NCBI GenBank assembly: GCA_963556145.1
Contig: OY744468.1
Span: forward strand, 6,200,001-6,264,000
DNA: 64,000 nt
Direction: 5' to 3'
Source: Hygrocybe punicea
Lineage: Eukaryota; Basidiomycota; Agaricomycetes; Agaricales; Hygrophoraceae
Positions 12,708 to 33,700 of this stretch are shown piece by piece; the first letter of the stretch is position 1; each line of letters opens with the position of its first letter. Made by a program: the position numbers and the translations under genes. Below the pieces are notes generated by a model. That model searched no databases. It saw only the letters and a program-made list of their open reading frames with translations, and was not told where the DNA came from.

Positions 12708-13173
12708 TCGTTCTATACGGTGGATTTTTCAACTCAGGGTCAGACTCTAATTTGCCAAGCCGTGGGAACAATTGTTGCAAACTGTGGGAACAATTTTGAA
12801 GCCCTGTGAATAAATTTGAAACTGTGTGACTGCTGACTTTGTAACTGTGAGAATTTGTTGTCTCAAATGAGCAAGAACAATAAGGTCACCAGATCAAAGG
12901 TGCCAAGTTGGGAAAGTGTAGTCCACTGCTAAGTCGACTTCATGACAATAATCGTATTCTTTGTTGGTGTAATGTGCATTATGACATATGGATGAGTTGA
13001 AAACCTGTCTGAACAGTACTGAGAGTTCTGTATTGTCCAACTAGTATCCCTGCTGTATTCTGAGGAATTGCCAGTGCAATATAGACTGAATGAACCAGAT
13101 ATGATATCTTTGTTTACAGATACATATAACAGCTATGTACATTGGAATCACAAGGAACAGGTTTAACACTGGT

Positions 13174-13611
13174 TTAACCGGCGGGTTCATCATTTTTCGG
13201 CACAAAGTGTTTTGCAGATGTCCCTACCTGAATCCGGGGCATTGCAATTGCACAAATAATAGCAGAAATAAAAGTCTGGACAGTTGTTGGATGTGCATTA
13301 TGTGCCATATTTGACATCCCATATTGAAGCAGGGAAAGTGCAAGCAGAGCTATCAACATTGAGAAACTATGGAGTTCACACATTGGTACCCCAGATGCTG
13401 TTTCAATGTATTCATTGAATGGGCTCATAAGGGTGAGGTGTATAATTTGTTGATGTTTCATCAAAGGACACGAAAATAGTACAATAAATGCAGTCAACTG
13501 CATAATGATTCGAGATCCAGACACAAGGACAAGGAACATAATTAGTTCAAGAGAAGCTCCAATCATGCCAGAACAAAATAATATGATTGGAAAGCAATTA
13601 TTAAATAGCAA
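13174..13611 (-). CDS. Hypothetical multi-pass membrane protein in Helitron cargo
   Basis: A 145-codon ORF with about four hydrophobic segments (starting FPIILFCSGMIG, LIMFLVLV, MLIALLALSLL and FISAIICAIAM). No family is recognised. It may be one exon of a longer gene: 12720-13170 and 13612-14090 show no clear partner exon. It lies within the Helitron 5' cargo. Confidence 0.35.
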   Translation of the reverse strand: MLFNNCFPIILFCSGMIGASLELIMFLVLVSGSRIIMQLTAFIVLFSCPLMKHQQIIHLTLMSPFNEYIETASGVPMCELHSFSMLIALLALSLLQYGMSNMAHNAHPTTVQTFISAIICAIAMPRIQVGTSAKHFVPKNDEPAG

Positions 13612-13879
13612 AGCATCATATTTATGGCAGGATGGGAAGAAGTGAAGGTTGGGCCAAGATACAATCCAATGGTATCAATGCAGGAACATAGCAACATAGG
13701 CTTCTCAGTACAGCAGTGAATTTCGTCATCAATTTAGATATAAAGGAGTAAATATGCTTGTTGTACCTGCAGATTTCGTCCAGTTAATATGACACGTCTT
13801 TGAACAAAAGGTTATGCATCACATATGCGAAGTAAAGGTAGTTTGATTGAATTTGTACAATGAATTGTAATTCAGTTTC

Positions 13880-13945
13880 ATGGACCACAAACCGAACATA
13901 TTGGACATGTTCGGTGTGTTCGGTCAATGTGTTCGGTCAATATGT
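13880..13945. repeat. GTTCGGT repeat cluster (short)
   Basis: Contains CCGAACATATTGGACATGTTC and then several TGTTCGGT units in about 65 bp. It is the same motif family as the larger array at 20797-21060, also inside the Helitron. Confidence 0.6.
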
Positions 13946-14101
13946 TCAGGTTACTATTGTCATATGTGATCAGTACACATTGAACATTGGATATAGTTAG
14001 CTATCCAGTGGTGATACAAAGAGAATATGCAAACATTAAATCTGGATTATAGGTAGATAATGGATTTTCAATAGCTCATTCTCATCTTTTCAGCAAAAAG
14101 G

Positions 14102-14582
14102 CACATTGAGAAATTTGGACTTGGTAGAATTTTGGGTGCTGTGTTTTGTATCTCATGAAATACTGCTTGGATCAAGATGGTTATACAGTTTATGATTCTG
14201 GTTGTATTTCGAGCCTAGTGACAGACAAACATAGTACAGATGCAATGACGGCTCAAAGGACAAAAATAGAGAAGAATATGGTATATGTACTTCTAGGCCT
14301 TGAAAAGATGAACAACCTTCTCCCTCCAGTCTTCTTCATATGAGCTCTTTCGATGTCATAATTTGACAGTATCATTTTGGGCGTCAAAAAGTACTGGTCT
14401 ACCTTTTATTTCATCAACAACTCACTATATCCTAAATATTGTTCAAATGTAATTACAGGCGTAGATAGTCCTCAAGACATAGTACAACTTTCCCTGTATA
14501 ACCATCTTAATCCAAATAGTATTTCATGAGATACAAAACACAGCACCCAAAATTCTACCAAGTCCAAATTTCTCAATTGATT
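14102..14582. mobile_element. hAT-type MITE with about 90-bp inverted repeats
   Basis: The left arm 14105-14193 and the inverted right arm 14488-14578 are nearly identical (a few substitutions), beginning ATTGAGAAATTTGGACTTGG. They are flanked by an exact 8-bp duplication CAAAAAGG (14094-14101 and 14583-14590). The central 290 bp has no convincing gene; the ORF at 14146-14343 is a by-product. It is inserted in the Helitron cargo region. Confidence 0.82.
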
Positions 14583-14663
14583 CAAAAAGGTGCAGTTGCT
14601 GCCATCAGATAGCAAAACAGCTGTAACATATCAACGGGTTGAGTACACATACAATATTATACA

Positions 14664-16139
14664 TTAGCATCGGTCTATATTCATATTATAGAAGCGTCGC
14701 CTTGTTTCCACAACACCCTCTGCATCATTACCCTCTTCCACATACCCAACATGCCGTTTGATGGCTATTCTGGGCTGTGTAGTTGGTGTAGGCAAAGCTG
14801 TCTTGTTGCGAATCATAGTTGCTTCCTGAGAATATACATCAGTATTCGTTTAATTCTTGATGTATTAAAGTGTTACCTCTGTGAAGTCACTGTCTACCAG
14901 TGCCAATGACCGTAGATTCAGAATCATCTTGAATTTATCCTTCTTTACCGGAACTGCCGATATTGTAAACTGAACCTCCACTATATCACCGATTCTAAAG
15001 CAAGTTGGGTTTGTTGGAATGAAGCTAATAAATATTTCCATCAGTAGGGATGTGATCCCAATTCATCGTCACTCACCAATGTCGATTTCTATCAGACTTC
15101 AACTTGTAATAAAGTACACAATTGTCCTGGCCATGAAAGTAGCGGGAATTCGCAAGTGAGGTTAATATGCCTTTTGGATCGATGACATACTCGAATGGAA
15201 TGTGAGAGGAAGTGTTGTCATGTCGGCGATCAGTGAAATATCGGGTTCCTATTGCAAGTGCCATGTAATCCATGTATGTAGAAGGCGTAAAAGCTTGCAT
15301 TGCTTTGTCAGGAAATTGACGAGCCAGTTTCTGGTGCAGAATCCGAAGGTTATCGATATAGGATTGAAAGCCCGTTGTATCAAGGCCAGTTACGACTATG
15401 CTTTGACGTATGAAGGGCGTTCGGCGTTCTGGTTGACTATTGCAGTGATTCATCAGAATGGTATTCAAGGAATTGATACGAATTTAGCACATACCTGGTT
15501 GTTATGGGTGGAAGATCTTTCGCCACCAAAATCGCTTGCAAACTTAATACCAATTCTTGATGTTCGGATTCATCATTGGTTGGAAGTGTAAACTTCCAGC
15601 AATTTGGAGAGTCAACATGCACAATATTGACATTTGCAATCTGGCAATGCGGTCAATATGATATACCTTTTCAAATCCAATGACTTACGTTTGTGGCCTT
15701 CGCAAGCTGACTTTCATCATCGTCTAAGCGTGCAGATATGATTTCCTGCAGATGTTCAGCTGTCAATTTGGTGTCAAATACTAGCCAGTATATATATGGT
15801 GGATATTGCTAACATGCACCCTTGAAGTTGTAATAGTTGTCCATCACGTACAAAGCAGTGGTGAGATGTATATTGCGTGGTACAATTTCGTCCACTTCAT
15901 GGATTATATCTTCCGCCATCACCGATCATATCCATATTGGCTTTTGATGTCCATGTGATGATAGCTTTCAGGATCCGTTTTGCTTTTGTTTTTGTATTGC
16001 ATTCTTCAATATTGAAGTTTGCGTCATTTTGCATAATACGGATCCTTTCCATGTCTTTCAAATGCACCACATAATGTTGGTTGTCAGCTGTCTGGTTTGG
16101 ATATGGTATAGTCAAGCATGTACTCCAGCTTTTCCGCAT
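14664..16139 (-). CDS. Helitron cargo gene A: intron-rich, unknown function
   Basis: On the minus strand, six exons join cleanly from ATG at 15919 to TAA at 14664-14666, giving about 330 residues. Introns have GT...AG ends and CTGAT-like branch points; one example is 15440-15495. Motifs: HLTTALYVMDNYYNF, RTPFIRQSIVVTGLDTTGF, NSRYFHGQDNCVLYYKLKSD, and a C-terminal GDIVEVQFTISAVP / FKMILNLRSLALVD block that looks like an OB/beta-barrel-type segment (inference). An upstream frame, 15897-16139, encodes HLKDMERIRIMQND and probably belongs to the same gene, with a small indel near 15900-15915 breaking the join. It resembles repeated hypothetical families of agaricomycetes; function unknown. Confidence 0.6.
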
Positions 16140-16581
16140 TAATTCTGCATCACAGTATATGTGTGCACAGCATTAAAATTAGCCCCTATCCATTATGCAT
16201 CAATATCTGTTAGTATACCCCATGTTTCTTAATTTGGCATTATGCATTTTTGTTTTATGAATACCCCTTTTTGTTTAGTCTCCATTCCTAACTTTAATTG
16301 AATTTGTCAACAATTCATGAAATCTACCAGTATAAACTTGTGGCAAATATCATGTGGACAGTCATCCATTTTTCATGCATACCTTTGCGCTTTGCATGGA
16401 GTACATGGCCCAAGAAGCCTCGTTTGGTATATGAGCATGTGCCAATGGTGGATCCTCTGATGTTATTGTTGAAGTTTTGGATTCACCGATTCATCTTAAA
16501 TTCATAGCTTATTGTTTTTGAGTGATTTAAAGCGTGAGTGGAGATGATATCCACTATTCCATCAACTTTTACCGCTCTCCA

Positions 16582-18629
16582 ATGCCTCCCAAGAAGTCCA
16601 CCGCCACGAAATCAAACTCGAAAGCAAAATCCAAGGCCACCATGTATGCATCCCTATTTTACTCGGTATAACTGAAGTTTCTATTGCATGCACTAAAGAC
16701 GGCCTTCTGCAACAATCGAGAAGTGGAAGAAGGTCATCAAGACTTGGGCTGATGATGATATGTATGTGTCATCATTTTAATCATTATCTATTTTTGACCA
16801 ATGGACAGTGTGGCTTTGTCCGATGCTAATGATGATGCCGTCAGTATTCAAAGCACTGGCAGTGTAATGGCACCATCAACGCTCACAAGGTATCTATAAT
16901 CACATATCATTGTTATCCAATATGAGTTAACAAATATCAATATCCTCCTAGGCATTCCGTCAAGTTTCGCAACGTTAAAGACGTGTTAGTGTTTCAATAT
17001 CAAATATATCCACCATGATATCAATCTGTTACAGTGGAAAGAAACGTCAAATGTTATCTCCCAATGTCACTGACAATGACGACAATGTGTAAATATTTTT
17101 CATAGGTATTGTCTCATCATTGACAGGTTATCTATAGTAAAATGCCTTCCCCCGCCAAGAAATTGAAAGCTGCATCTAATCAATCATGAGATGGTGAGGA
17201 AGAGGAGGAAGAGGAAGAGGAAGAGGATTACAGTTCTAAGTGAGTTGTTCGGTTATCATAGACATATCCATTTGTTCAAACAAATCGTTTGACTGTTTAG
17301 GCATCGTCGCAAAGTAGCCTTGATGAAGAACCCCGATAAGCCAATTTCGTGTGTATTTTACGTGCCGATATGAATATTCTCATTCATTAATTGTAACAGC
17401 GTTTCTAATACTCCATCCAAGAAGTCGAAGTCCACGAAGGCCATCATGCTCGATGATACCGACGATGATAAAGGCTCCAGTGGCGATGAAGGAGATCTGA
17501 CCTATGCACTGACGCAGATCACCAGGTGTGTTGGATCTTATTACACCGTGGTGTTTGATGTAGATGTCGTGAATCTAGCTTACCATCTCCAAACGTTGAT
17601 GAGTCCGATATTGGCACGAGGGATCCTCAACTTGTTGACACCTACCAAGACTGTGTCAATATCAAGTATGCAATTGCATTTATACCCTTGTCATTTACTC
17701 ATAACCATTCAGGGCAGCAGCAATGGTATCCTGGTCCAGTGCAATTGGGAATGGCAACCCACAGTTCAGTGATATCATCACTGACATCTACAAGATCAAC
17801 AGAAAGTACGTTATTTGAACAGCAATTTGAGGTCAATTTGGTCGATTCATTGGATATAATATAGGTTATTGGTTTCTGCCATTACATTTGATAGATCTGG
17901 GAGGTACTCTAATCTCTCTCGTGATAACCCTGCCCATATCTTCACTGGTGCATTTGGTCGCAACTTCTTTCATGCAGTCGGAGGTGGAATGCCGACGATC
18001 TTTACATCGGTCATCATAGTGGAGTCCTGCTTTCTCGATGAGCCCAAGATTGGTGGCAATACAAAGCCGGTCAAGGTTATACAGGGTGCACTACTTCAAG
18101 GGGAATGGGAGCGATATGTCGGTGCTATTGGAATGGTGATTCGCGAGTCCGAATTTCAGGCCCAACTGTATAAGGACTATGTGTCCTTCTCAACGACCAC
18201 AGCAAGTGGAATGGATACATCTCCCAGTTTGTGCATTAATCATTTTTAGTTGTAATTCCTAATCGATTTTCATAGAGGCATCGACATCCAAAAATGTACA
18301 ACTTAGTCCATTCACTCGTCGACCCACTCCATCTTATCATAAGGCCGCTCTATCATTTTACGATATTGGTAAGCATCCGGTCGTCTAATATAAATTGATA
18401 TCTTAAGTATGTGTTGTCAGTGCCCATCTATGATGCACGCAAAGTCAAAGCGGACTTCACGTCCACTCTCATATCGCTCCAGCAACTACCCATCTTCCCG
18501 CACAATATCCCTGCAGGATCCTGTGTCGTTGTTGGACACACCATCAATACATTCAAGCGTGTAGATGACATGATGAAGAGTATTTCACTCAATGTGCAAT
18601 GGGTCATGGTCTTGGGAGTGCCGAAATGA
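16582..18629 (+). CDS. Helitron cargo gene B: many small exons, unknown function
   Basis: Starts MPPKKSTATKSNSK, a Lys/Ser-rich nuclear-type N terminus, then many short exons with good introns: KWKKVIKTWADDD, a run of Glu at about 17195-17230, and DDTDDDKGSSGDEGD. The C-terminal globular part has SAITFDRSGRYSNLSRDNP (17878 on), EWERYVGAIGMVI, DYVSFST, VPIYDARKV and a final NVQWVMVLGVPK before the stop at 18629. The YDARKV ... VVGHT ... NVQW block recurs in a large, uncharacterised agaricomycete family, from memory. One in-frame TGA at about 17188 lies before the poly-Glu run and would truncate the product unless it is in an intron. Cargo of the Helitron, divergently oriented to gene A. Confidence 0.6.
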
Positions 18630-18716
18630 TTGCTCCACTTAGCATCATTTATATTTGTATCTTATGTCTGTTTTGTGAAATAAACGTGAACCGATCCATT
18701 GACTGTACAGATAATA

Positions 18717-20539
18717 TTACAAATATGAGTATGGACCTTTGATGTCAATCAACCATTTATAGAAAACCCCTGCAAAAGTGTCTGCTAATGAGCCAATGGG
18801 TGCTCGAACGGATTTCGGACCTGACTTCATGTTCGACCAGAGGCTGCATGTGTGATAACGTTCCACCTCGTTCACGAAATAGGACACAGTATCCGTTTTG
18901 GAATCCACAATGAGCGATATGTCCATACGGCAAAAAACACTCATCAATGGTTTTCCACCAACCATATTGGACTCTATCGCATAAAGCCCTTCGTAGGTCT
19001 TTTGGACAAAGTCGAAGAACTCGTTTCTGCCTTGCTCTCGAATAGAAATGGCGCCCCTGTCCGGATTGCACGCCACCGTCTTCAATAGAGTCCCCTGCGT
19101 TTGAAATATTCTGACAAAGTTAAGACAATCATGCATATGATATGACAAGTGAAAATGAAGGGCACTCACCTTAACTCATCCAAGGTATAGAAACTTGAGA
19201 CGATATCCCACTTCCAGGACTTGCTTTCCTTGTTGTACAGGGTGTGCACCGTATACACGACCTTTCCACCAACTAGAAACACATGCCATTCGCCCATCTT
19301 ACTCAGTGGTTCGATGTACGTTTGCCCAAACCAACGTGAACCTGGAACCTCACAGTTATTGCGCATGTATTCCCAATTTCGCTTGGCATCACCAGGTAAT
19401 AGGACGTGATGACCGGTGTCGCTGTGTGTCCGTTTCAAGACAATATTCGGTGGGAATTGGTCGCCATCGTTTAATAATTTTGCTTGAGGGCGTATTGTAT
19501 GCGTTACATTCAAAGCGACATGAAGCAAGTTTTGATTTTGTATCCATTTTGAATGGACCGTGTTTATCTGCTTCGGAGGCGGCCAGATGTGTGCCGTTCG
19601 ACAGAGTTCGTCCATGCCAGTCATGAAAATCGACACATTTTCCAGTGTCAATCCGTATTGGTTACCGCTGTCAAGACATCAGTATAATGCAGCGAAAACG
19701 GAGCAGAATTAATTAAAGCGATGTCAATCTTACATGTATGACATTCCCATATCCACACCACCAAATACACAATCTGCCGATGCGAACTTTTGCCACGTAT
19801 CGCCTTTGTCTTGATGGCGAAGTATTGCATGAAGGAACTCGGGCCAAAATATGTATTTGACATTGAAGCGCCGGGCTCCATCCTCATGATGTAGTCGCAT
19901 TCCGATATAAACCTGTTTGTTGTGAAATACGTTTCAGTATCAACAATCCACAAATTAAACAATAGACATTACCCATTCTTGAATACATGCTGAATAGCGA
20001 CTCTTGTATGACTTGATGATATGGACGTAACCATCAAGATGGGCAATGGTATCGAGTTCGATGTCGGATATGGTCGTGGTGACGAATGCAAGATCGTTAA
20101 TGGCTGTGGCTTTGCTCGCGATACGAGTCGTTGGGTCAAGGATAAAAAGGATTTTGAAAACACGGCCGTCATTGTTGCTTAATGTGGTTATACGGCGTTC
20201 ATTGTTGCTTACGGTGGTTGGCGGTTCCGTTTCACAGTCAGATGATGTTTCCATCTCAGAGTCGGATGATAGCCTTTTGCGTGGAAGGAGATCGAGTTCC
20301 GCGGCCGTCGCATTGCGGACACCCTGCGAATTTTCACGTATGTTGCGACCAAGACATACCGACTGCGGACAAATTCCAGACGAAACGCATTTGGGATGTT
20401 GGTGTGCGGATCCGACATGTCTTTGGCAGGAGTTGCCTTCCTTCTTCCACAAAAGACATTTCGTTTTTGGAGAGTCGCATTTTCGACCAGGGCAGATGTG
20501 CATGCAAAGTTCATAACCAAGTTCCTTCTTATATGGCAT
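18717..20539 (-). CDS. Helitron cargo gene C: Cys-rich N terminus, ATP-grasp-like C-terminal half
   Basis: The minus-strand start MPYKKELGYELC at 20539 opens a Cys/His-rich region (CPGRKC, C-x6-C and HPKC motifs, possibly zinc-binding), then a linker with SSDSEMETSSDCETE. Later exons, with introns near 19080-19170, 19655-19730 and 19905-19975, encode NIVLKRTHSDTGHHV, SRWFGQTYIEPL, GEWHVFLVGGKVVYTVHT and FCRMDISLIVDS...YFVNEVER. The Lys/Arg pair, the GEW-V-GG strand and the R-x-D ... NEVE end resemble an ATP-grasp nucleotide-binding fold; this is inference from spacing, not a confirmed match. Convergent with gene B (under 100 bp between the stops). Function unknown. Confidence 0.55.
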
Positions 20540-20796
20540 GTTTGTGGACCTAGGCAGGATTTCGGATGGGTGGGATGAGGAACAGACACAGATATCATTA
20601 ATACATCAATACCTTAATGATTGATTACTTTCAGGGTGGTTGATAGCGGGTGGTGATGATTCCACAAACCTTCTAATTATAAGACGTCGGAATTATGTCA
20701 CCTGACAAGAGTGGCAATGATAAAACAACGAACACGTGCCAAACACGTTGATCAGCAATGGAATCATTTAAATGTCTTGAAAGAGCAATATCCACC

Positions 20797-21060
20797 GAAC
20801 AGATCGGACGTGTTTGGTGTGTTTGGTGGAGATGTTCGGTGGATGTCAACCAACCATTATGAGGAGATATACTACACCGAACACATCGAACATGTTCGGT
20901 GTGTTCGGTGGAGATGTTCGGTGGATGTCAACCAACGGTTGTGACCGGATATACCACACCGAACACATCGAACATGTTCGGTGTGTTCGGTGTAGTATAT
21001 CTAGTCGTACATTGACATCCACCAAACATGTCCGGTGACCGAACACACCAAACAACATGT
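20797..21060. repeat. Tandem palindromic GTTCGGTG array
   Basis: About three units of 80-85 bp, each built from a near-palindrome (ACACCGAACACATCGAACAT and its complement-like half) followed by GGATGTCAACCAAC. The array lies between convergent gene C and gene D, which read away from it, so it sits in a shared upstream region. Could fold into hairpins. The reading frames through it are not genes. Confidence 0.75.
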
Positions 21061-21463
21061 TTGTTGTAGTATATCTAGTCCTTCTACATCCATCCAACAA
21101 GTCAGACTTGTTGTGCTTTTCCGTCAACGGACCAGTCCGTGAATATTCATCGAACGAATTAACTCGATTTATTGCCTTACCTACTGGAAAATATTCCATA
21201 CGCTGCACATGTCGGTTTTCTGCGTGCAATTACTAGCTTTGGACAACTTCTAAGCTCGAGCCACATCAAAAACATAAATAAATAGATCTGTTGTTTATGC
21301 ATGCAAAGAAGCCGAACATGAGGTCGAACATGTGGCGATTGATCTGGTCACGTGGTCGTGACATCCGTATTCATAGTCTGGAGCGTTGAGTAATAAATCC
21401 GCCCTTTTCTTTTGCTCTCAAATCGCCTCACACGTCGACCAAAAAACTTTTATTTCATCTACC

Positions 21464-23273
21464 ATGTCCTTGCCAGTCGTCAAAACCTCGACTCCCGCTG
21501 TCAATCCCGCCGCCTTCAAGTACTGGCCTGATGCGCCGCCCAAAAAGCTGCAGGAGCTACATCGCATCTTCCAAATCCAGTACATGGTCCCGCCCAAGAT
21601 TCCGGCACCCAACAAGGAATCCGGCACCATTCCCGTATTTTCTCGTAATCTCTATGTACTGAAGACACACCCCCACGATGCCACCGCCCGAGGTGAGTTA
21701 TGGCGCGAAATCCCCGAACGATACGAGGAACCGCTCCGTCGCTTGATTTATCAAATGGATATGTACATCTACGCGACAGCAGCCATCGCATACAACAAGG
21801 CACCCAACTACTCACCGGACTACGTCAAAAATGATAAGGAAGGGACCGATTCACTTCGGGATTACCTCAAGTATACCGGCACCGTCATGGACGAAATTTG
21901 GGCAGAAGTCTTGGTGGCGAAACGGGCAAACGAGGTTACCCGTGACTGGCGAAGCAAGATCTTCGATGATTGGCTCCTGAAAGAATTTTATGTCGGGAAA
22001 CATTCTCCATCGGCTTTGATTCAACATGGCGCTGTGAACACCGAGATCAAGCCCGAGGATCTAGGTAAGTATATATGTATTTATGGCCAAATGAATTCTC
22101 ACGTCTGGCATCATAGATTGGGCAAAATACGACGAATCCGTGCCAGCATGGCACAGCGGAACCTTGGCAAATTGGTCATTCGGTGGGCTTCCGGACGCCA
22201 CAAAGCTCGAGATCATCGGTCATGTTATTGCTTGGTGTAAAGGACATAGTGTCCTCGTCGATTCTGATGTGGCGGATGATGATGAAGGTGTGATCTAGAA
22301 TTACATGTGTGATTGTGCTAATGATATAATACATTTGCAGAGGAGCCAGTTGCCCAGGGCAAGGGCAAGGGCAAAGCCAAGTCAAAATCGGTCAAAAAAC
22401 AGAAGGCATCTTCTGCTGGTTTGTACAAATTTTCAACCATAGTGGTGTATAGATCTATTGAATATTCAGGTGGCGCAGACAATTCGTCCGAGAAGGACAA
22501 AAAGAAGCCCAAGCCCAAGCCCAAGTCCAGTAAGTACTTTCATTGTCTGTGATTGTCATACATGCAAACCCTTCATCATGACAGAGCGCACAATCAAGTC
22601 CAAAGCCGAGGACGACGATGAGGGTGAGTTATTGAATTCCGAATATCAAAACGATGATCCAACACATTTATTCATGTATAGACGACATAAAGATGGAGGA
22701 GGACGTAGCCCCGGTAAAGAAGAAGCGGTCTAAGGCCCAAATGCGTACGTTGCTCACCTTGTTATGATTAATGCACTGACATCTCGCAGTCGCTGTTGAA
22801 ATTGGGTCGTCGCGCACAACCCGGCAATCGGCATCGGAGAAATTGACAATGGAGATTAAGCCACCCATCGCCCCCGAGCCGGATGTTGTGGCACCGGAAT
22901 CTGCGAAGTTGGACATTTTAGGACCAGATTGGGCGGGGTTGTTGGATGTTGATAATGATATAACCATGTACAACGATGACTGATCTCCCGAACCTGAAAA
23001 GATGTCTCCCAGCGATGGTCACGAGGATGGTGAGATGGCAAAGAGGAGGAAATTGGATGTTGCTTCGGAGCAAGCGGGCATTATCGTAGAGAAGCTCAAC
23101 CTGGTGAAGCCACCGAAGAAGTCTCCGACTCCGGGTATGTATTTCAACATTACATCATAGGCTGTATATATTCCAATTCTGATCTTCTCCATGTCCTAGG
23201 ATTCCGTCCCAATACGCGTGCATTGTCACACTGTTATGTGAATGTTTGTTTCACCAAGAATTACCGGAGTTGA
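21464..23273 (+). CDS. Helitron cargo gene D: unknown, with basic/acidic C-terminal tail
   Basis: ATG at 21464 (MSLPVVKTSTPAVNP). Exon 1 runs to about 22061 and encodes a compact domain with KYWPDAPPKKLQELHRIF, LWREIPERYEEPLRRLIYQMD and WAEVLVAKRANEVTRDWR. After an intron (22062 to about 22116) the frame continues DWAKYDESVPAWHSG and HVIAWCKGHSVLVDSD. Then four or five tiny exons give Lys-rich stretches (KGKGKAKSKS, KKKPKPKPKS, PVKKKRSKAQ) and an acidic tail. An in-frame TGA at 22981-22983 (DD*SPEPEK) splits the last part, or marks the end of the protein with the rest as relic. No family recognised; the tail looks nuclear. Cargo of the Helitron. Confidence 0.6.
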
Positions 23274-23289: not shown

Positions 23290-25885
23290 TCTTGTTGTTC
23301 GTGGGTTTTTGATATCTAAATAACCTATCAGGAAGGGGTTTGTGGGTATATGTACTATATGAATCAATAGAATGTAATAGTGAGGTCTCTTCAATTAAGA
23401 ATTGAGACTTTGAGTAGGTATGAATAGCAATTGGGTGTGTGATGTACTGAAAATACTAATATTCACTACTGGAATATAAAAATATGAACTAATGAATACT
23501 GATAACAATATTCACCAGTTGAATATGGATGGTTTTGGCTACAGGGCCTATTCAATCAAGAGTATCTCTGGGTATTATAATATCTGACTTAAATCCGAAG
23601 CTTCAAACGCACATTGGCTACTAGTTCAGGGATATCTTTAATACCTTTTGAATACTCTGTTTTGTTTAGGATGAAACCTTAACCTTAGAAGTGTATCTAT
23701 TTAGGATGAAACCTTAACCCTAGAAATGTATCTAGCTGACTAATGCTGACTAATGAATTGATTGAACTGAGTGAACTGGGTGAATTCTCCTTGATGACAA
23801 GGGGAACTCAGAGAATGATAGAATAAGAGTGAACTAGACTGGATTGCAAGCACTAGCTACTACAATGAGTAACTACTAGTACTAAGAGAATGAGGGATCA
23901 CACTGTGTGAACCCAACTAAGAGTGACTACTGAGTGGTGAGGGGGGAAATCCTACTGACTACTGGTATTTGGGGGCCCTATTTATACTGTTGGAGAACAA
24001 TGGGGGACTGAGAACAATGGGAAAGTGAGAACAATAGGACTGAGTCATGAGAACAATGGATGGCATCAAAGAGGCTGTGAACAATGGGCTCTATCTCCAT
24101 TTGGACTGTTTAGAACAAAGGACTGCTCAGAACAATAGACCATTGTCTTTATGTAAGCAGAATATCACAATCACTCTCTGATGCATCCTATCTTATCATT
24201 ATCTTATCATCCTCTTGTTCACATCTTATCTAATCATTTCCCATCATCTAGCTAAGCCGCTTTTGATCAATACAAGTAAACAAGATTTGTAATCAATCCA
24301 TTACTGCTAATATAGGTAAGAATGCTAGTTGGGCTTGTCTCCTTGCACGTGCAATACAGAGAAATATATAATAAATACTAATGAGTGGGGGATGTGCCTC
24401 TGTGCACCATACATAAACAGCTAGGTCTGGGCATTGCTAGTGAAGCCATAATAAATGATATAAAAGTAAGCATAAATGCTAATTGTGTCTGTTCACTAGC
24501 ATGCGTAATGTGGAAAGGCATAGAATGGGTACTGATGAGTGTAGGTGTGCATCCATAGTGTTGCACTTAAATATCTAAGTCCGTGGTCCGATGGTAAACC
24601 CATGACATTACACCCAAAAACACTTGGGGTCATGACAACGCCACCAGTCATCGACCCCTGCAGAGCCCAGCGCTTCATCAATGGATGTGGATTGGAGCAA
24701 CATCGTTCCACCCGAAATCCTACTCTCCATTACTCCAAGCCAAACGAGGCCTTCATCTCCCAAGCCATCGACATCCAAACTTGATCCCAGGCCTTAATTT
24801 CGGAGGAGTAAGTCCTTCTTTTGTGGAGTATTCATTATATTTGACTAAAAAGACTGTATCCCAGTCGTTGATTTCTGGAAACTTGGTGACAATCTGTGCC
24901 CTCAAATGTCCTCCTCATACATCGCTACTATTAACATTTGTACAGTTTCTATATATGTATTTCTTTTTGCTCCGTTAAAAATGGTTTGTGTTACTGTCCT
25001 ATGACCATAAGAATTGAGCATGATAGTGAGCATAGATACAGCATAAGGCATCAATCTTGTTGACTGAAAATCTGTTTGTCTAAAATATATCCTGGTGAAT
25101 GCATTACTTTCAGTTCAGTTGTACAACCACCTACACACTCAACTTGAGAAGGACAACCTGAGATGACTCTCATTTGGGCTAATGAAAATTCAAATTGAAT
25201 ATATGTAAGAAACCAGAATCACGAACTTTATGGACCTATTAAATGAGGATACAATGATACAAGAGTAACAAAACCCCCTCTTGTAGTGGAAGATATAACT
25301 GTCACTCCAAGGGGAGCTATGACTCTTTGGTACCGGAATAATACAGTATACTTGTGTGGGAATGATACGTACAGCTCCATAAAAATGACAATGTATTTCT
25401 GACAAGGATGAAGAACAATGATAATTTCCATGAATTACCAAGCAATTGTCAAATATGCACAGTTGTCAAACAGCCTGGTTGTTCAACTTCAATACCTGTT
25501 TTGTCTGTTGAGCAAGCTAGAAATAAATATCACTGAGACTCTGAAGATTAAATCCACAAAATATCTTAAAAGGGGGTACCATTGTTCTTCTCAGTCGGTT
25601 TGATCAATGTCTTGTCAGCCAGACCCCTAATAAGATCGTAAGGCAGCTATTCATGATACAGATGCATTTTTGGCCTGTATCAAGGCATGTCACAGGAACA
25701 TAGAATGGAATAAAAAAAGTAAACACAGATTTCTAAAGATTCAGGCACGCCTTATGGTGTTTTGGGAAAAGCTTACAAATAATATAATGTCATATGATCA
25801 ATCCCATTGTGTTAATTGTTATTCATGATCCGAACCACTTGACTAGTTAAATGGGCGGTGTTTCCTCTTACTGTCACAAATCCTC
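23290..25885. other. Non-coding stretch between Helitron cargo and RepHel gene
   Basis: No gene is supported. 23672-23735 holds a tandem pair of units TTTAGGATGAAACCTTAACC plus about 10 bp. 23990-24140 has about seven spaced GAACAATGG/GAACAATAG motifs next to a CCTATTTATACTG TATA-like site (23979), the look of an LTR U3 region, but no matched second LTR or clean ends were found. 24545-24980 has two short plus-strand ORFs without a recognised family. 25190-25880 is AT-rich and likely includes the RepHel promoter. Confidence 0.5.
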
Positions 25886-27100
25886 ATGAATCCCCACAAC
25901 ATCATCCGTGTCTGCATTGCATGTTTGACTTATCTATATTTCCTTGCAAATGCAACATTATTTCCACAACTATGCCAAGACAAACTTATGTATATCTCTC
26001 CTGAACCAATTTCCTGTCCTGTGATATCGACCTTGACCCAAGAATTGGATGTTTTTCAAAGAAAACTCATAGAACATGAGTTGGCCCCAGATCAGGGCGA
26101 TGCAACAATATTGATGCAAATAAATGCAACACTATATGTAAAGATCATTGGAATAACAAAAGAAACAAAAGATAACTTGACAGTCGATCCATTATTCGTT
26201 TGGACTACATTTAAAAATAGCGCCTTCAAAATGCAAATACGTTCTATTCAATATGCCAGAACATATTTCTTACCTCCTAAATATCTCTTTGCTTTGTATT
26301 GTCTTCTCAAACCTATCACTGTCCAATGTCGTTGTAAAATGATCAAAGCATTGCTCATGCGATCGCTATTGAGACGACATGATTTCAAAGCATATTTATT
26401 TCATTGTATTACTAGTTCTCTATCACATGCAACGTTGCTGTGGACCACACTATGTTTCATAATACGGCATAGCCGTTCAAACATAATTGTGTTCAATTTG
26501 AATTTATTCGGACACTTGTTTAAATCTTTATATATAAATTTCGTTCATAGATATGACTACATTGGTGGTGGTAAACGAATACCAACATTCAAGTTTAGCT
26601 TTCTTCAATCTTTTATGCTACCGTCTAATAATATCAACCATGATTCTGACATATTATTCGAATATGTGGGGCATATTGATGAACAAACAGCCAACACTTT
26701 ATATGAAGATAGAAAAACATATGCATGTGTTAAAATGCCTTTACATGAACTTCTGCCAAATTTGACAGTGAAGGATATTGGTGAAATAACAACAATACAT
26801 GGTATATATTTGTCAAAGACATTACGAAGATTACATGGACAAGATCTATCTGTGGCATTAATGAGGCATAATTGTTCAGCTTGTGATACTCATGTTTCTA
26901 TTTTTCATGTGCATGATATTAAATCACATAAAGACCTGTGTAAACAGTGGTACAGAAGACAAAAAATGACAGAAACATATGAGTGCGGCAAAGAAGAAAC
27001 TCAGGCTCAAATGAAAGAAGAATTGGACAAGTCAGATGAGCAATTATTTCCTCCTCCTCCTCCATCTATTGAATTGAAGGAAACCATAATCAGCAACTAG
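25886..27100 (+). CDS. Helitron RepHel protein, N-terminal part (ends at an in-frame TAG)
   Basis: 404 codons. The C-terminal third has CSACDTHVSIFHVHD (a zinc-binding Cys/His cluster), an acidic-basic linker and PPPPPS. It stops at TAG 27098-27100. The next codons, in the same frame with no other stop, encode CRDTSPECFQESGCAVCGQL and run straight into the main RepHel ORF. This is therefore best read as the beginning of one Helitron protein of about 2,580 codons cut by a single nonsense codon. The N-terminal 250 residues show no recognised domain; the true start could be further upstream. Confidence 0.7.
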   Translation: MNPHNIIRVCIACLTYLYFLANATLFPQLCQDKLMYISPEPISCPVISTLTQELDVFQRKLIEHELAPDQGDATILMQINATLYVKIIGITKETKDNLTVDPLFVWTTFKNSAFKMQIRSIQYARTYFLPPKYLFALYCLLKPITVQCRCKMIKALLMRSLLRRHDFKAYLFHCITSSLSHATLLWTTLCFIIRHSRSNIIVFNLNLFGHLFKSLYINFVHRYDYIGGGKRIPTFKFSFLQSFMLPSNNINHDSDILFEYVGHIDEQTANTLYEDRKTYACVKMPLHELLPNLTVKDIGEITTIHGIYLSKTLRRLHGQDLSVALMRHNCSACDTHVSIFHVHDIKSHKDLCKQWYRRQKMTETYECGKEETQAQMKEELDKSDEQLFPPPPPSIELKETIISN

Positions 27101-30100
27101 TGCAGAGATACATCACCTGAATGTTTCCAAGAAAGTGGGTGTGCTGTATGTGGTCAATTGGTTGCATTGAAAAACATGTCTTTATTGTCAAAGATGAAGG
27201 TTAATCTGAAAATATTAACTAGAGACAATATGGGAATCACAAGATGTGAACGATATCATTGTTCTGATCCAATAGAGGATATCAAAGGTCCAGTGCTAGA
27301 TGACACATGTAAATGGATATGCAAACCATGTGTGCTCAGTCTGAATAAAGGCCAAACTCCCAAATATGCTTTGGCGAATGGACTTTGGATGGGAAGAATT
27401 CCTGCACAACTTCAAAATCTAACATTTGCTGAACAACTTTTGATTGCCCGTGTTCGTCACAACAAATGTATTGTTCGTGTCTCCTCTGGGATGCATAAAA
27501 TGAAAGCAAATGCCATCATGTTTCAAAACCCAACACCAAAGATATATCAACGGTTGCCTCCAACAATTAAAGAACTTGATGAAGTGCTAGCGTTTATTTT
27601 CACTGGTCCTGCCAGACCAACTCCAGAAGACATGGAGCGAACGCCTTTATTGGTTCGCCGAAGGCGAGTTTCTGCAGCTTTAGAATGGCTGAAATTGAAT
27701 CACATGGATTACTATGATTTAGATATCTCCTATGAAAATCTAGCACAATATCCAGATCATGGAATTCCTGTTGTGGTTGCATATCGACCAGCAGACACAA
27801 ATAAGGAACCAGAAGCCACTAGTGCATTTGACAATGAAGTGGAAGATGGTGTGGAAGATGGGCCTTGTCCCTGTGTTGTTAGTGGAGTAACTGGCGAAAA
27901 TCTAGATATTACAAGTCCAAAGGCATTAATAGCTAGAGCGACCAAGCACTTGATAGATGACCATGGTGGTGTTCTTGCCATAAGCCATGCTAGAAATCCA
28001 GAATCGTTCTTTAATAATCCTCAGTTATATCCTATGATGTTTCCCTGCCTATTTCCATATGGCTTGGGTGGTATTAGCAGCATAGACAATGATGTTTTAA
28101 GCATCAGTGATATGATGCACAAAAGACATCTCCTGATGTACCATGACAAAAGATTTCAAACCGATCCCTATTTTCCATTGATTGCATTCAATCAAGAACA
28201 AATCAAGGACAGTACAACCGGAGGATATTTGTTGACTAATAAACATAATTTCAACAATATTGCAGATCGCCTGATGAATATCAATACAGCTGTTTTGGAT
28301 GACCTCTCTAAGAGATTATCTACAGGTGATAGAGTCAAACCAGATACATCGGAAGAGAAAGCATGCTATAAACTCATTTCTGATCTGGATCACGCAGCTG
28401 GTCAGGTCAAAGGTTCAATTACTAACAAGAAATACGTGGGAAATGAGATTTGGTCTCTGATATCCTATATTGGTGCTCCGACTTGGTTTATCACTTTTGC
28501 ACCTGCAGACATCAATCACCCACTATGCTTATATTATGCTGACAACAAAGAAAAGTTTTATCCTAAACTACGTCTACCCCAGGATTGTTACAAACTAATT
28601 GCAAACAATCCAGTTGCTGGAGCCCGCTTTTTTCACTTTACTACTGAAATGTTCATCAAACATATATTAGGAATAAATGAATCTCATCCTGGCCTGTATG
28701 GAAACACATCAGGTTATTATGCAACGGTAGAGGAACAAGGACGTCTTACCTTGCATCTTCATATGCTGTTGTGGATAAAGGGATGCCTTACACCTCAGGA
28801 AATACGTGACAAAATTATGGGTGAAAATTCTGACTTTCAGAAAAGATTAGTGGAATATTTGGAAAGTTTGTGTGTAGGACAATTCATGACAGGTTCTAAA
28901 GATGAGGTATCACAGAAAATGGAACAGACAATGTCGAAACCTGAATATCAACCACCAACATGTGTCATGCCAGATCCACCATCATATAATTGTTCCATGA
29001 ATTGTCAATATCACAACAAAAGATCAACATGGTGGCAAAGGTTTCAAGATGTTGTAGATGATCTTTTATTGCGATTAAATGTACATAACAGGCATGATGG
29101 CAAAAAAAAGCCATACTGTCTTAATTCGAAAGGTGAATGTAAACGACGATTTCCCCGTGATATCTTTCAACAAACTTTTGTAGAACCTAACACTGGTGCT
29201 CTCAACCTCAAGCATGGTGAACCTTGGATGAACACGGTGACACCTGAAGTTACATATATGCTACGATGCAATTCTGATGTGACCAGCTTATTATCAGGTA
29301 CTGCTATAAAGGCCATAGTTGCATACATAACAGATTATATTACAAAATTCTCCTTGAAGACCTATAGCATTTTTGAAGTGATAAAAAGTATTTTTGATAA
29401 GAATTCCGAAATGATTGGTGGCGACCTGAAAAGAAAAGACAAAGTCAGAAAGCTGTTTACACAAATAGTCAATTCACTCACCTCCAAAATGGAAATTGGT
29501 GCTCCAATGGCTTCATTATATGTCCTTGGAAATCCTGATCACTACACCAGTCATAAATTCGTGCCATTCTTTTGGAGATCTTATGTTAAAGAGGTTATCA
29601 GTGCATGGTCTGATGAAGAAATTCCTAATATATGTGAAGACCAAAATAATGCACAAAAGGTTGTTATTGGTAAGAATAATGGCGCATACATTGGACTTTC
29701 CAAAGTAAATAATTATATGTTCAGACCCGCCTTGTATGATAATGTATCACTGTATGACTGGATACGTCTTGCCACTATGGAACCAAAGAAAAGACGCACC
29801 AAAACAAAGACCAAAAGGGCCAGAAAAGAACCAGTGCAAAACCAAATTTTTGACAATCTAGGCTGGGATGATTTGTCTGACTCTTGCACTGAACCTACTA
29901 ATGTTGACTATTCCAGTGATGACAACTTGTCTGATGTCGTTGATAATGATATACTCATGGAGATAGATGAAATTCCAAAACCTGATAGTTTGAATAGACA
30001 TGCAGGCACAGAAATAGCTGATAAAACAAATGAAGTTGATCTTAATAAATTGACAAAATTTGAAAATGATTATACTTTACATTCCAATCATCCACAATAT

Positions 30101-33100
30101 CTTACCCACCATGCCAAAATGAAAGGGAATGATCCTTTCATAGTTCCTAATTTTATTCCGAACACTTTGCCAAGGGCTGACCGTGGTGATCGAGAATATT
30201 ATTGTTGTACAATGTTAATGTTTTTCAAGCCATGGAGAAGTGGCAAAGAACTCAAAAGTAAATTACAAACATGGGATAATGCTTTTATAGACCACGAGTT
30301 TTCTAAAAAAGAACTAGAGATCATGAAATACTTTGGTCTGCGGTATGAATGTTTGGATGCAAGAGATGATTTCTCTGCTAAACGTCAGAAGAATAATACT
30401 GCAAATATAAGGTATTCATGGGCGACCTCAAACGGTCTTGATGAACTGGATGACATGCACAATGCTGAATTTGCATTTAATGGCGACGACTTCAACAACA
30501 ATATTGATGAAGACAATAATGACACGGAAATACTCCTGAAACTTGGTCAAAAAGGACAAAAAAGGAAAGATCAAATGCTGATAGCTGAAAGAACTTTGAA
30601 AAGGTCAGGGTGGCTCGATGATTGTATTGATGGTACCCCAGATATAGGACCGTTGATACCTATAGAACCACCTGTAGTACAATCAGCAAAATTGTGGAGA
30701 ACTGCAGTCCTTGCAAAGAAAAAGGAAATCATCGATGACAGAAATAAAAATTTACCAACAAACACAGCAACCATAAATAAATTGGGAAATTTTCAATATA
30801 ATGATGTCAAGATAGTGGATGCAGCATACATCAACCATATGTTTATTCCTGCAAACAGAGCTGATCGTCATCTTATTGATGTAACTATCAATGATTACAA
30901 GTTGAACACTGACCAAAAGAGAGCATTTCATATCATTGCGAATCACTCTACCTTGATTAACGGTTCTGATAAGCTACGCATGTATCTTGGTGGGATGGCA
31001 GGCACAGGGAAATCACAAGTCATCAAAGCATTGACTAGTTTTTTTGGTAAACACAACGAAAATCATCGATTTGTGGTTCTTGCACCAACCGGTGGTGCTG
31101 CTGCCCTTGTAAATGGATCCACATATCACTCCATTCTTGGAATTAATCAGGGAGGATCATCTTGTTCCCTTGCACAAGTATGTGCCAATCTTGATGGTGT
31201 GGATTACATTTTCATTGATGAGGTGTCAATGTTATCTTGCAGAGATATGTATAAAATCAGTGCTCAGTGTGCAAATGCACGTGGTGTTTATGATGAACCC
31301 TTTGGTGGCATTAATATGATATTTGCAGGAGATTTTGGCCAACTTCCACCAGCTATGAGTGGTGCTCCTTTATACTCTGGAACCGTTGGTGTCCAAATCA
31401 ATTCCAGTCAAACTATAGCAAATCAGGAAGCGGCTATAGGCAAAGCTCTTTGGCATCAAATAACAACAGTTGTTATATTACGTGAAAATATGAGACAAAC
31501 CAATCAGTCAGAAGAAGATGTCCAACTGAGGCTTGCTTTGGAAAACATGAGATACAAAGCATGTACTCCCAAAGATATTGCATTTCTTCGTACTCGTGTT
31601 GCAGGAAAAGGTCCAAATGATCCAAAATTAGCCCAAAAGAAATTCAGGAATGTGTCAGTTATAACTGCATTGAATGCACAAAAAGACAAAATCAATGAAC
31701 TTGGTATTCAATGTTTTGCTGCTGAAAATAGGAGACCATTAACATCATTCTATTCCATAGACAGATGGAATGATCCTACTAGTTCCAATAGCAAAAGAAA
31801 ATCTCATCACATGTCAACAATTTTGGATCCTATTCGACACACAAAGATATTGGAACCTTCACTCCAAAAGCTACTTTGGAGCCAACCACATGCATCATCC
31901 TCTGATCATATACCAGGAAGATTGGACTTATGTGTAGGCATGCCAGTGATGCTGAGGAACAATGATGCAACAGAGTGCTGCATTACCAAAGGAGCAGAGG
32001 GCATAGTTGTGGGTTGGCAGAGTGCAATAGGTCCTGAGCAACAAACTGTACTGGACACTTTATTTGTCAGATTATTGAATCCTCCAAAAAAAATTAACAT
32101 AGAAGGACTTCCTGAAAATGTTGTGCCGATTACAAAACATGTCACTTCCACCATGTGCTCATTACCCAATGATGATGTGATATCTTTGTCAAGAGAACAA
32201 GTGTTGGTACTACCTAATTTTGCAATGACTGATTATGCATGTCAAGGACGTACTCGTCCTAACAATGTAGTTGACCTCAGTAGTTGTAGAAACCACCAAT
32301 CCTATTATACTTGCTTATCAAGAAGTGCTTCTGCAGCAGGAACTATCATCATGCAAGGCTTTGATCCTAAAGTAATTACTGGGGGTGCTTCTGGATATCT
32401 CAGGCAGGAATTCAGAGAATTAGAACTGCTTGATGAGATTACCAAACTGAAATATCAAGGACTCTTACCAGACCATGTCAAGGGAGATCAGCGAAATTCT
32501 ATCATTGATCAATTTAGAAAATGGAAAGGAAAGTCATATATTCCAAAAAACATTCATCATGCTATCGCATGGAAAGCCACGGAGCAACTAAATCAATACA
32601 CAACACAGCCCTCTCCATGGCAATTAATTAAACATATGAACAAAAATCAAAAGGCAGATTTCAGAAACCTCAACTTTGTTCCTGCAAAAGGAACTGTTCC
32701 AATCACTGTCACTCATAAAAATTCGACGGCCAATGTATTGCAAAATAAAAAACGAAAATTACAACAAGTTGTAAGTTCATCTTCCATAGTGAAAAAAAGA
32801 CGAAAAACAAGTACTATTGAATTAAATGAACCAAAAGGGTTTATATGGCATGCGGAAGATTGGAGCTGTGCTTATGATTCACTCTTTACAATATTACTAG
32901 CAATATGGAATGAAGATCCATCAAGTTGGAAAAAAAGATTCAATAGCATCAATGAAATATTAAAGATTTTGAGCTTAGGATTCAAACGATCCAAGAATCA
33001 CACAACAGATTTAGAAACAGTTAGAAATACAATCAGACATTTATTGCATCAAGATAAACCCGAAATATTTCCTTATGGTCAAGTTGGCATTGCCATAAGT

Positions 33101-33631
33101 GATTTGGCCCATTATATAATGAAAGCAAATGAACCAATGACTTCAACTTGTCTTAAATGTATCAATTGTGAAAACATAACTATTCTGGAAAATGATAGAT
33201 GTGACGCCATCTTTCATTGTTCATATTCATTTTCTGGAACAATCTCAACATGTCTTGCTCAAATCATAGTTAATAGACAACGGCACAAATGTCAATTGTG
33301 TTGGGGAGAGATTACTAAATTTATTGCATTTAACAAAATTCCACCTCTAATCATGTTTACAGTTGACTCTATTGAGAATTTAATAATTAGTCAAGTTATA
33401 AACTTGTCAATTGATGACATATCCACTGCTTACACATTGAGAGGAATTGTGTACTTTGGTGATGCACATTTTACTGCCCGCATATTCATCAACAGTATGG
33501 TATGGTTTCATGATGGTATATCAACCAGATCAATTTGTATTAATGAAGGTGATATAGATGACTTTTCAAATATTAATTTATTGTCATGTAATGGTAATAA
33601 TGCTGTACTGTTTATATATGCTCAATCTTAA
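27101..33631 (+). CDS. Helitron replication initiator-helicase (RepHel) with C-terminal USP-like protease domain
   Basis: Numbered from Met at 27158 (2157 residues). Residues about 20-200 are DUF6570-like (LLIARVRHNKCIVRVSSGM, FTGPARPTPED). The Rep nuclease (Helitron_like_N) covers about 285-760: LFPYGLGG, the HUH motif LHLHM with His533 and His535, and the two-tyrosine motif Tyr723-x3-Tyr727 for strand nicking in rolling-circle transposition. A linker with basic and acidic runs (880-960) follows. A PIF1-type SF1B helicase covers about 1250-1750: GGMAGTGKS, FIDEVSML, FAGDFGQLPP, YTCLSRS. The C-terminal 280 residues look like a peptidase C19 (USP) fold: Cys1904 in DWSCAYDSL, CxxC pairs (CINC, CQLC), His2104 in GDAHFTARI and Asp2119 in WFHDG. 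The long open frame suggests recent activity. Acts on the Helitron ends in the nucleus. Confidence 0.92.
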   Translation, partial: CRDTSPECFQESGCAVCGQLVALKNMSLLSKMKVNLKILTRDNMGITRCERYHCSDPIEDIKGPVLDDTCKWICKPCVLSLNKGQTPKYALANGLWMGRIPAQLQNLTFAEQLLIARVRHNKCIVRVSSGMHKMKANAIMFQNPTPKIYQRLPPTIKELDEVLAFIFTGPARPTPEDMERTPLLVRRRRVSAALEWLKLNHMDYYDLDISYENLAQYPDHGIPVVVAYRPADTNKEPEATSAFDNEVEDGVEDGPCPCVVSGVTGENLDITSPKALIARATKHLIDDHGGVLAISHARNPESFFNNPQLYPMMFPCLFPYGLGGISSIDNDVLSISDMMHKRHLLMYHDKRFQTDPYFPLIAFNQEQIKDSTTGGYLLTNKHNFNNIADRLMNINTAVLDDLSKRLSTGDRVKPDTSEEKACYKLISDLDHAAGQVKGSITNKKYVGNEIWSLISYIGAPTWFITFAPADINHPLCLYYADNKEKFYPKLRLPQDCYKLIANNPVAGARFFHFTTEMFIKHILGINESHPGLYGNTSGYYATVEEQGRLTLHLHMLLWIKGCLTPQEIRDKIMGENSDFQKRLVEYLESLCVGQFMTGSKDEVSQKMEQTMSKPEYQPPTCVMPDPPSYNCSMNCQYHNKRSTWWQRFQDVVDDLLLRLNVHNRHDGKKKPYCLNSKGECKRRFPRDIFQQTFVEPNTGALNLKHGEPWMNTVTPEVTYMLRCNSDVTSLLSGTAIKAIVAYITDYITKFSLKTYSIFEVIKSIFDKNSEMIGGDLKRKDKVRKLFTQIVNSLTSKMEIGAPMASLYVLGNPDHYTSHKFVPFFWRSYVKEVISAWSDEEIPNICEDQNNAQKVVIGKNNGAYIGLSKVNNYMFRPALYDNVSLYDWIRLATMEPKKRRTKTKTKRARKEPVQNQIFDNLGWDDLSDSCTEPTNVDYSSDDNLSDVVDNDILMEIDEIPKPDSLNRHAGTEIADKTNEVDLNKLTKFENDYTLHSNHPQYLTHHAKMKGNDPFIVPNFIPNTLPRADRGDREYYCCTMLMFFKPWRSGKELKSKLQTWDNAFIDHEFSKKELEIMKYFGLRYECLDARDDFSAKRQKNNTANIRYSWATSNGLDELDDMHNAEFAFNGDDFNNNIDEDNNDTEILLKLGQKGQKRKDQMLIAERTLKRSGWLDDCIDGTPDIGPLIPIEPPVVQSAKLWRTAVLAKKKEIIDDRNKNLPTNTATINKLGNFQYNDVKIVDAAYINHMFIPANRADRHLIDVTINDYKLNTDQKRAFHIIANHSTLINGSDKLRMYLGGMAGTGKSQVIKALTSFFGKHNENHRFVVLAPTGGAAALVNGSTYHSILGINQGGSSCSLAQVCANLDGVDYIFIDEVSMLSCRDMYKISAQCANARGVYDEPFGGINMIFAGDFGQLPPAMSGAPLYSGTVGVQINSSQTIANQEAAIGKALWHQITTVVILRENMRQTNQSEEDVQLRLALENMRYKACTPKDIAFLRTRVAGKGPNDPKLAQKKFRNVSVITALNAQKDKINELGIQCFAAENRRPLTSFYSIDRWNDPTSSNSKRKSHHMSTILDPIRHTKILEPSLQKLLWSQPHASSSDHIPGRLDLCVGMPVMLRNNDATECCITKGAEGIVVGWQSAIGPEQQTVLDTLFVRLLNPPKKINIEGLPENVVPITKHVTSTMCSLPNDDVISLSREQVLVLPNFAMTDYACQGRTRPNNVVDLSSCRNHQSYYTCLSRSASAAGTIIMQGFDPKVITGGASGYLRQEFRELELLDEITKLKYQGLLPDHVKGDQRNSIIDQFRKWKGKSYIPKNIHHAIAWKATEQLNQYTTQPSPWQLIKHMNKNQKADFRNLNFVPAKGTVPITVTHKNSTANVLQNKKRKLQQVVSSSSIVKKRRKTSTIELNEPKGFIWHAEDWSCAYDSLFTILLAIWNEDPSSWKKRFNSINEILKILSLGFKRSKNHTTDLETVRNTIRHLLHQDKPEIFPYGQVGIAISDLAHYIMKANEPMTSTCLKCINCENITILENDRCDAIFHCSYSFSGTISTCLAQIIVNRQRHKCQLCWGEITKFIAFNKIPPLIMFTVDSIENLIISQVINLSIDDISTAYTLRGIVYFGDAHFTARIFINSMVWFHDGISTRSICINEGDIDDFSNINLLSCNGNNAVLFIYAQS

Positions 33632-33668
33632 TATGTGTTCTCTTGTTAAAAGAAGGGACGAGTAACAT

Positions 33669-33700
33669 GCCATGCAAAGCAATGGCCCACACCCCACTAG
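33669..33700 (+). terminator. Helitron 3' hairpin and CTAG terminus
   Basis: GCCATGC (33669-33675), loop AAA, and GCAATGGC (33679-33686, one bulged A) form a short stem. Ten bases follow, then CTAG (33697-33700), then host T. This is the rolling-circle transposition terminator arrangement of Helitrons. It lies 38 bp after the RepHel stop. Confidence 0.8.

Follow-up and report, generated by a model that had tools for sequence, protein, structure and literature searches.

The window analysed here is a 64,000-nt stretch of the Hygrocybe punicea genome (GCA_963556145.1, contig OY744468.1, positions 6,200,001–6,264,000, forward strand), in which a large Helitron-type transposon lies inside the reading frame of a gypsy-type retrotransposon (Table 1). 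The interrupted gypsy element is bracketed by long terminal repeat (LTR) pieces at 7686–7835 and 34054–34203, 93% identical to each other, and its frame, broken by a block of about 21 kb, is in phase again at T33701, as an earlier interpretation made from the letters of this DNA (the sequence-only reading) had described. Within the block lie a partial gene (A), three apparently spliced genes (B, C and D), a tandem repeat and a long Rep-helicase (RepHel) frame ending in a predicted USP-type deubiquitinase fold. Relatives and copies were sought in the window's own assembly (92.2 Mb, 42 contigs), first with the initial 243 nt of the element as query.

Table 1. Features of the element and their positions in the window
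Feature	Coordinates	Strand	Description
Whole Helitron copy	12687..33700	+	21,014 nt between A12686 and T33701; defined by 9 empty gypsy sites, end families and 7 other copies
5′ terminal hairpin	12689..12711	+	−7.8 kcal/mol; z score −3.84; 0/200 shuffles as good
Possible asymmetric inverted repeat, 5′ arm	12687..12697	+	TTACgagTCCC; 8/11 positions pair with 33655–33665; by eye, weak alone
Gene A	14650..16150	−	Partial, several exons, approximate limits; open stretches with splice-like joints, model not closed
Gene B	16582..18629	+	13 exons, ~470 codons; one stop in the window copy
Gene C	18717..20539	−	4 exons, 545 aa; homologue with a predicted ATP-grasp fold (RimK/LysX-like)
Tandem repeat	20793..20992		82-bp unit CACCGAACA...; number and orientation of units differ between copies of the element
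Gene D	21464..23229	+	At least 8 exons; interrupted in the window copy by a stop and by the 1.4-kb insertion
Later insertion	23230..24637		1.4 kb, in last modelled exon of gene D; absent from 7/7 other copies
Rep-helicase frame	25886..33631	+	2581 codons; stop at codon 405 in the window copy; motifs
DUF6570	27347..27745	+	Pfam E value 2.6e-43
Helitron_like_N (Rep)	28124..28771	+	Pfam E value 2.9e-30; HLH motif at 28754 (HLHMLLW)
Two-tyrosine motif YITDYITK	29324..29347	+	Motif read in the sequence
PIF1-type helicase domain	30899..31519	+	Pfam E value 1.9e-20; PIF1 matches in PDB
C-terminal USP-type deubiquitinase fold (predicted)	32822..33628	+	Cys box, two CxxC, His box; predicted local distance difference test (pLDDT) score 85.6; USP46 E value 4.2e-12
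Possible asymmetric inverted repeat, 3′ arm	33655..33665	+	GGGAcgaGTAA; from the sequence
3′ subterminal hairpin	33669..33686	+	10 nt before CTAG; 7 pairs, one bulge
3′ terminus	33697..33700	+	CTAG; next base T in 20/20 distinct flanks

The limits of the element are set by gypsy relatives. Nine of these, 82–85% identical and retrieved with the right flank, were aligned to the joined 160-nt flanks; because all nine cross the joint A12686|T33701 without a gap, and the alternative joint A12707|T33701 leaves 21 extra nucleotides in every one of them, we place the element at 12687–33700, with one base ambiguous because the element begins with T and the host resumes with T. The 21 nt in question (TTACGAGTCCCTATAAGGGAA, 12687–12707, including an in-frame TAA at 12700–12702) precede TCGTTC in other copies with unrelated flanks and so belong to the element. 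The shared sequence extends these 21 nt further upstream in 5 of 10 loci, namely those in that orientation, window included, and the flanks diverge beyond. The sequence-only reading had put the 5′ end at 12708, after A12707, with a TC start. The slip of 21 nt equals seven codons, so that the gypsy phase looked right under either joint. This start is ruled out by the 21 nt shared with other copies, by the empty sites, by a nested copy and by the flanks: the element begins with TTACGAGTCCC (TTACGAG), both at 269 genome matches and at the empty sites, and ends with CTAG. No target duplication is needed at insertion, either at the gypsy joint or at the nested copy joints, in agreement with the same reading, and the joined gypsy site whose search it had proposed is present in the nine relatives (at A12686|T33701, not at A12707|T33701); gypsy homologues that naturally lack the joined sequence were also looked for, and the nine relatives contain it.

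The copies of the element elsewhere in the genome support the view that its whole interior moves as one transposing unit. First, patterns for the two ends (34 nt for the 5′ end, 46 nt for the 3′ end, at most 2 mismatches) matched the genome 269 and 324 times, respectively, and the reversed patterns used as controls matched 0 times. Second, the ends are spaced as those of a large unit. In a test that took 100 listed 5′ ends (of 269) and 88 of 100 listed 3′ ends (of 324), 31 of the 100 5′ ends have a listed 3′ end 18–24 kb away where 0.55 are expected (mean of random shifts 0.55, maximum 5 in 500), and 44 pair with a same-strand 3′ end within 35 kb. Third, seven copies besides the window were read through their full interior, six of them complete (19,521 to 21,274 nt) and one a piece without the first 87 nt. 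All carry the whole interior in the same order, 96–99.6% identical to the window over the main blocks and lower within the tandem repeat, between unrelated flanks. The element is present in many near-identical copies and appears to have been amplified recently.

These copies bear directly on the idea that a small Helitron, comprising RepHel from about 24–25.8 kb to 33700, sits in an older block and that the 21 kb is a chance nest. Its starting point was looked for, as the sequence-only reading had suggested, and none of the seven copies begins there; each carries the full interior, so a small unit of this kind is ruled out among them, and the empty sites refute it for the window copy. Genome counts of 34-mers from RepHel (215) and the USP region (229) do exceed those from gene B (98) and gene C (126) by about twofold, as that idea would have it, and the segment at 23230–24637 is a genuine later insertion; against this, the 5′ end (269) is at least as common as RepHel, and the 18–24 kb end spacing lies far above chance. 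The 34-mer excess is also as expected if different cargo rides one backbone, and truncated copies or unequal 34-mer conservation could cause it too. We therefore give the chance nest very little credence. Of the two histories offered by the sequence-only reading, a single 21-kb Helitron or growth by later nesting, each holds for its part: a unit of about 19.6 kb appears to have moved as a whole, and 23230–24637 was added later. This insertion, with the ends TGTTATG...ATGACA, may represent a solo LTR.

Segmental duplication or repetition in the assembly would likewise give large copies of very high identity. This origin is the least probable of all those considered, as the 5′ flanks comprise 25 distinct sequences and the 3′ flanks 20, with purine–T targets and clean empty sites. 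Two arrangements have the element itself as the target or host of insertion. One copy (c6c) is inserted in reverse inside another copy's Rep-helicase, giving an exact empty site; at C3:7321135-7339206 (L049, L050), a copy begins immediately behind nucleotide 21 of another, forming a nearly tandem pair, and the joints of the nested pair read exactly ...AAGGGAA|TTACGAG and CTAG|TCGTTC, the target being the element. Helitrons inserted at or near the ends of other Helitrons are also described, in the excerpt of the source, for Fusarium oxysporum (PMC5148889). Two of the copies hold insertions of their own: c6c (L028) has one of ~384 bp at window position 16545, whose ends ACACAGGATGCATGG...CCATGCACCCTGTGT are inverted and which is probably a small element of the inverted-repeat kind, and c7a (L019) has one of ~1.67 kb at window position ~15463, in the gene A region.

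RepHel joins Rep (HUH) and PIF1-type helicase domains in one protein (PF14214, PF05970), which places the element in the Helitron superfamily. We take YITDYITK to be the Y2 motif of Rep; the protein also contains GGMAGTGKS. A separate 404-aa gene upstream of RepHel, considered as a candidate, is ruled out, since the frame runs through in other copies; it is open in two of eight copies, one of these with 6 nt deleted. RepHel has 739 relatives at E ≤ 0.001, the best-scoring being 59–63% identical over the entire query region; among the 120 of 739 listed, those with a name come from Piloderma croceum (65% across 49% of the query) and Athelia sp. (50% across 49%).

The C terminus of RepHel is predicted to be a USP-type deubiquitinase fold. 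The last 313 residues were modelled at the pLDDT given in Table 1, except for a disordered first 43 residues, and a Foldseek search with the model returned 281 matches at E ≤ 0.001, with USP46 the best in PDB (template modelling (TM) score ~0.58). In an alignment of this region from the element and 31 relatives (32 rows), the Cys box and the four zinc-type CxxC cysteines are invariant and the His is conserved in at least 90%. The Cys and His boxes are present in six of the seven other copies; the frames searched in the seventh, c6b, did not show them, which a 2-nt deletion in that copy may explain.

Judged by family definitions taken from an excerpt of PMC5148889, the termini are of mixed kind. 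The 3′ end follows the CTRR of Helitron1 (CTAG) and is preceded at 10 nt by the hairpin first read there, which is weak, and the 5′ end lacks the TC start. Of 25 distinct 5′ flanks, 14 have A and 11 have G next to the element, and none has a pyrimidine there, so that the target is purine|T rather than the strict A–T of canonical Helitron1. The hairpins, strong at the 5′ end and weak at the 3′ end, and a weak, imperfect inverted repeat (8 of 11 positions) may recall Helitron2; the Helitron2 target, between TTTT and T or C in the excerpted definition (PMC5148889), does not occur in the distinct flanks. For a Helentron, an AP-type (apurinic/apyrimidinic) endonuclease was looked for, and no Pfam match to one was found in a 2157-aa part of RepHel or in three relatives. 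On its sequence, the element is a Helitron with mixed termini, having a strong hairpin at the 5′ end and a weak one at the 3′ end, a purine–T target and CTAG. The kind of transposon is known, but this form of it is unusually large and abundant and is loaded with genes.

The element carries at least three cargo genes (B, C and D) as standing parts, each predicted to be spliced. An automatic exon predictor gave poor models, and exons were set by hand from splice signs. One exon stretch of gene A gave no Pfam match, and genes B, C and D gave nothing above the Pfam cut-off, with a weak YL1 match for D (E = 0.02). A full-length gene C query returned a single homologue, which as a query returned 21 database matches including itself, Boletus and Pisolithus among them. 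The homologue has weak Pfam matches to RimK (E = 0.018) and R2K ATP-grasp (E = 0.14), both below the cut-off, and its model (pLDDT 73.9) matches LysX/ArgX and RimK ligases (E = 6e-5, TM-scores near 0.4); a PDB sequence search gave no significant relative for gene C or the homologue. Among the first eight copies, stops occur in gene B in two, in gene C in none and in gene D in two, with small gene D deletions in two others. With ten further stretches added (the diverged copy L075 was excluded as too divergent), neither stops nor indels occur in gene C in 15 of the 17 copies with at least 92% coverage.

Such cargo could be passive, consisting of host gene pieces captured once and merely copied, of no use to the element; Helitron gene capture is known from the excerpted literature (PMC4289320, PMC6431247). 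Patterns of change among copies bear on this. CpG transitions are about 20 times commoner per site than other transitions (0.18–0.20 versus ~0.01), an excess that fits cytosine methylation of the copies, and they were counted apart. For gene D, the non-CpG changes shared among copies comprise 52 non-synonymous (N) and 58 synonymous (S) against a neutral N fraction of 0.73 (p = 6.7e-9), many of them belonging to a divergent block of three copies (L070, L076 and L077), and single-copy non-CpG changes comprise 62 N and 49 S (p = 5.8e-5). Rep-helicase has 126 N and 98 S, a ratio of 1.29 versus 2.6–2.8 expected. An apparent selection signal in gene C among close copies (first p = 0.002) was withdrawn once CpG transitions were counted apart.

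Further evidence comes from L075 (C7:6049453-6068241), which has exact ends, exact RepHel and USP 34-mers and cargo 67–93% identical to the window; it was read at 6057141–6062541, and its RepHel identity rests on the two exact 34-mers. Compared with this copy, gene D has a non-synonymous rate (dN) of 0.096 and a synonymous rate (dS) of 0.369 (omega 0.26), and gene C a dN of 0.239 with dS saturated; gene D of L075 itself has a stop and indels. As genes C and D are constrained relative to L075, both have long been maintained, though not in every copy. These comparisons show purifying selection on gene D and, relative to L075, on gene C. Passive cargo agrees with the lack of significant selection on gene B, and on gene C within the close family, but runs against the selection on gene D, the long-term constraint on C and D, a gene C frame open in most copies read and the gene C homologues in other fungi. 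We judge it unlikely, at perhaps one chance in a handful.

Three copies suggest, further, that the cargo recombines. L070, L076 and L077 are ~98–99.5% identical to the window up to ~21.8 kb, outside the tandem repeat, and 85–94% identical from there to ~25.0 kb (the block reaching ~25.1 kb); over the 400 nt that follow, identity is 95–96% in the two copies for which this part was read. Within this divergent block, L076 is 98–99% identical to L077 and L070, and its left breakpoint falls in exon 1 of gene D, at ~21.74–21.83 kb. The simplest reading of these sequences is that one recombinant cargo allele spread to at least three places.

Taken together, we hold it highly probable that the window contains one copy of a large rolling-circle transposon of Helitron type that was amplified recently and whose unit, about 19.6 kb long, carries B, C and D as cargo, with selection acting at least on D and, over a longer time, on C. 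Several observations weigh against this reading. The splice joints were set by hand. The 3′ hairpin is no better than composition predicts (46-nt piece, z score −0.45, 52/200 shuffles as good; 31-nt piece, z score −1.44, 20/200). Gene D is intact with respect to stops and indels in just 9 of 18 copies, two of these 9 covered to ~80%, and its CpG changes show no selection; selection on gene B is not significant, nor is that on gene C within the close family in any class of change, CpG transitions apart. Finally, Rep-helicase has stops in six of eight copies, two of them at the same codon, and most copies read would thus be non-autonomous.

The mechanism that we propose as probable is of the rolling-circle type: Rep-helicase would nick the element at the ends, unwind it there and place a new copy at a purine|T junction. 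Genes B, C and D would travel as standing parts of the unit. Selection preserves at least D and, over a longer time, C, the likeliest reason being a benefit of their products to the element or its host. The fused USP-type protease domain, as modelled, would probably remove ubiquitin from a transposition protein or a host factor.

The remainder of the window holds an NPHP3_N/NACHT-type frame and, after it, one with 15 WD40 matches (57620–61662), an NLR-like fungal gene; a PrpF-family open frame at 53232–54587 (Pfam E = 1.8e-79); a CxC4 cysteine cluster, associated with KDZ transposases, at 49331–50155; and repeated units of ~172–220 nt, 77–87% alike, at 38455–39305.

Among known systems, each taken here from excerpts of the papers cited, HELPO1 and HELPO2 of Pleurotus ostreatus are likewise basidiomycete Helitrons with a RepHel (~1400 aa); they measure 1.5 to 13.7 kb, with 37 validated elements in PC15, and captured genes number between one and four in autonomous HELPO1 copies, with a gypsy element in one HELPO1.2 copy (PMC4289320). 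By comparison, the unit here is ~19.6 kb, its RepHel of 2581 codons has a USP fold and its ends number in the hundreds. The non-canonical, Helitron2-like FoHeli1/2 of Fusarium oxysporum have hairpins at both termini and an inverted repeat tens of bp before the 3′ end, as the present element may; unlike the present element, with its CTAG, imperfect 8-of-11 repeat and purine–T target, they are ~5–6 kb long with a 12-bp inverted repeat and an ATTTT end (PMC5148889). Certain animal Helitrons and Helentrons also bear a deubiquitinase domain in the Helitron protein, there of the VTD or OTU class and, in VTD elements, with an AP endonuclease, whereas here the fold is USP-type and no endonuclease match was seen (PMC9741609). 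Fungal Helitrons carrying TET/JBP genes have an extra enzyme gene, proposed there to serve the transposon; theirs is a dioxygenase, here an ATP-grasp-like gene and genes without a family match (PMC12730594). A review gives fungal Helitrons as 6–7 and up to 14 kb and regards the capture of full-length genes by Helitrons in general as exceptionally rare (PMC6431247); beside the 14 kb cited there, the present element is unusual among fungal Helitrons in both size and gene load, as the sequence-only reading had remarked. In the open-licence literature, no paper on a Helitron with an ATP-grasp was found, and among the matches listed no large or giant, extra-protease, accessory-gene or deubiquitinase Helitron of this kind appeared in titles or the openings of abstracts.

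The element combines a ~19.6-kb unit and at least three apparently spliced genes with hundreds of ends. It has young copies and precisely defined empty sites, and a diverged subfamily keeps genes C and D. A broader interpretation, which we advance tentatively and rate at somewhat below even, is that it represents a modular giant Helitron lineage, in which a constant backbone (the ends and RepHel-USP) bears several complete accessory genes that selection maintains, and copies exchange cargo alleles by recombination. Starships are large cargo-mobilising fungal transposons, and a modular Helitron would be their rolling-circle counterpart. Because copies are many and the genes complete, some of them apparently maintained, the element is a good case for asking whether cargo helps its carrier, and with it one may test whether cargo is selected for the element, trace the route of cargo exchange and ask whether a rolling-circle transposon profits from a deubiquitinase domain.

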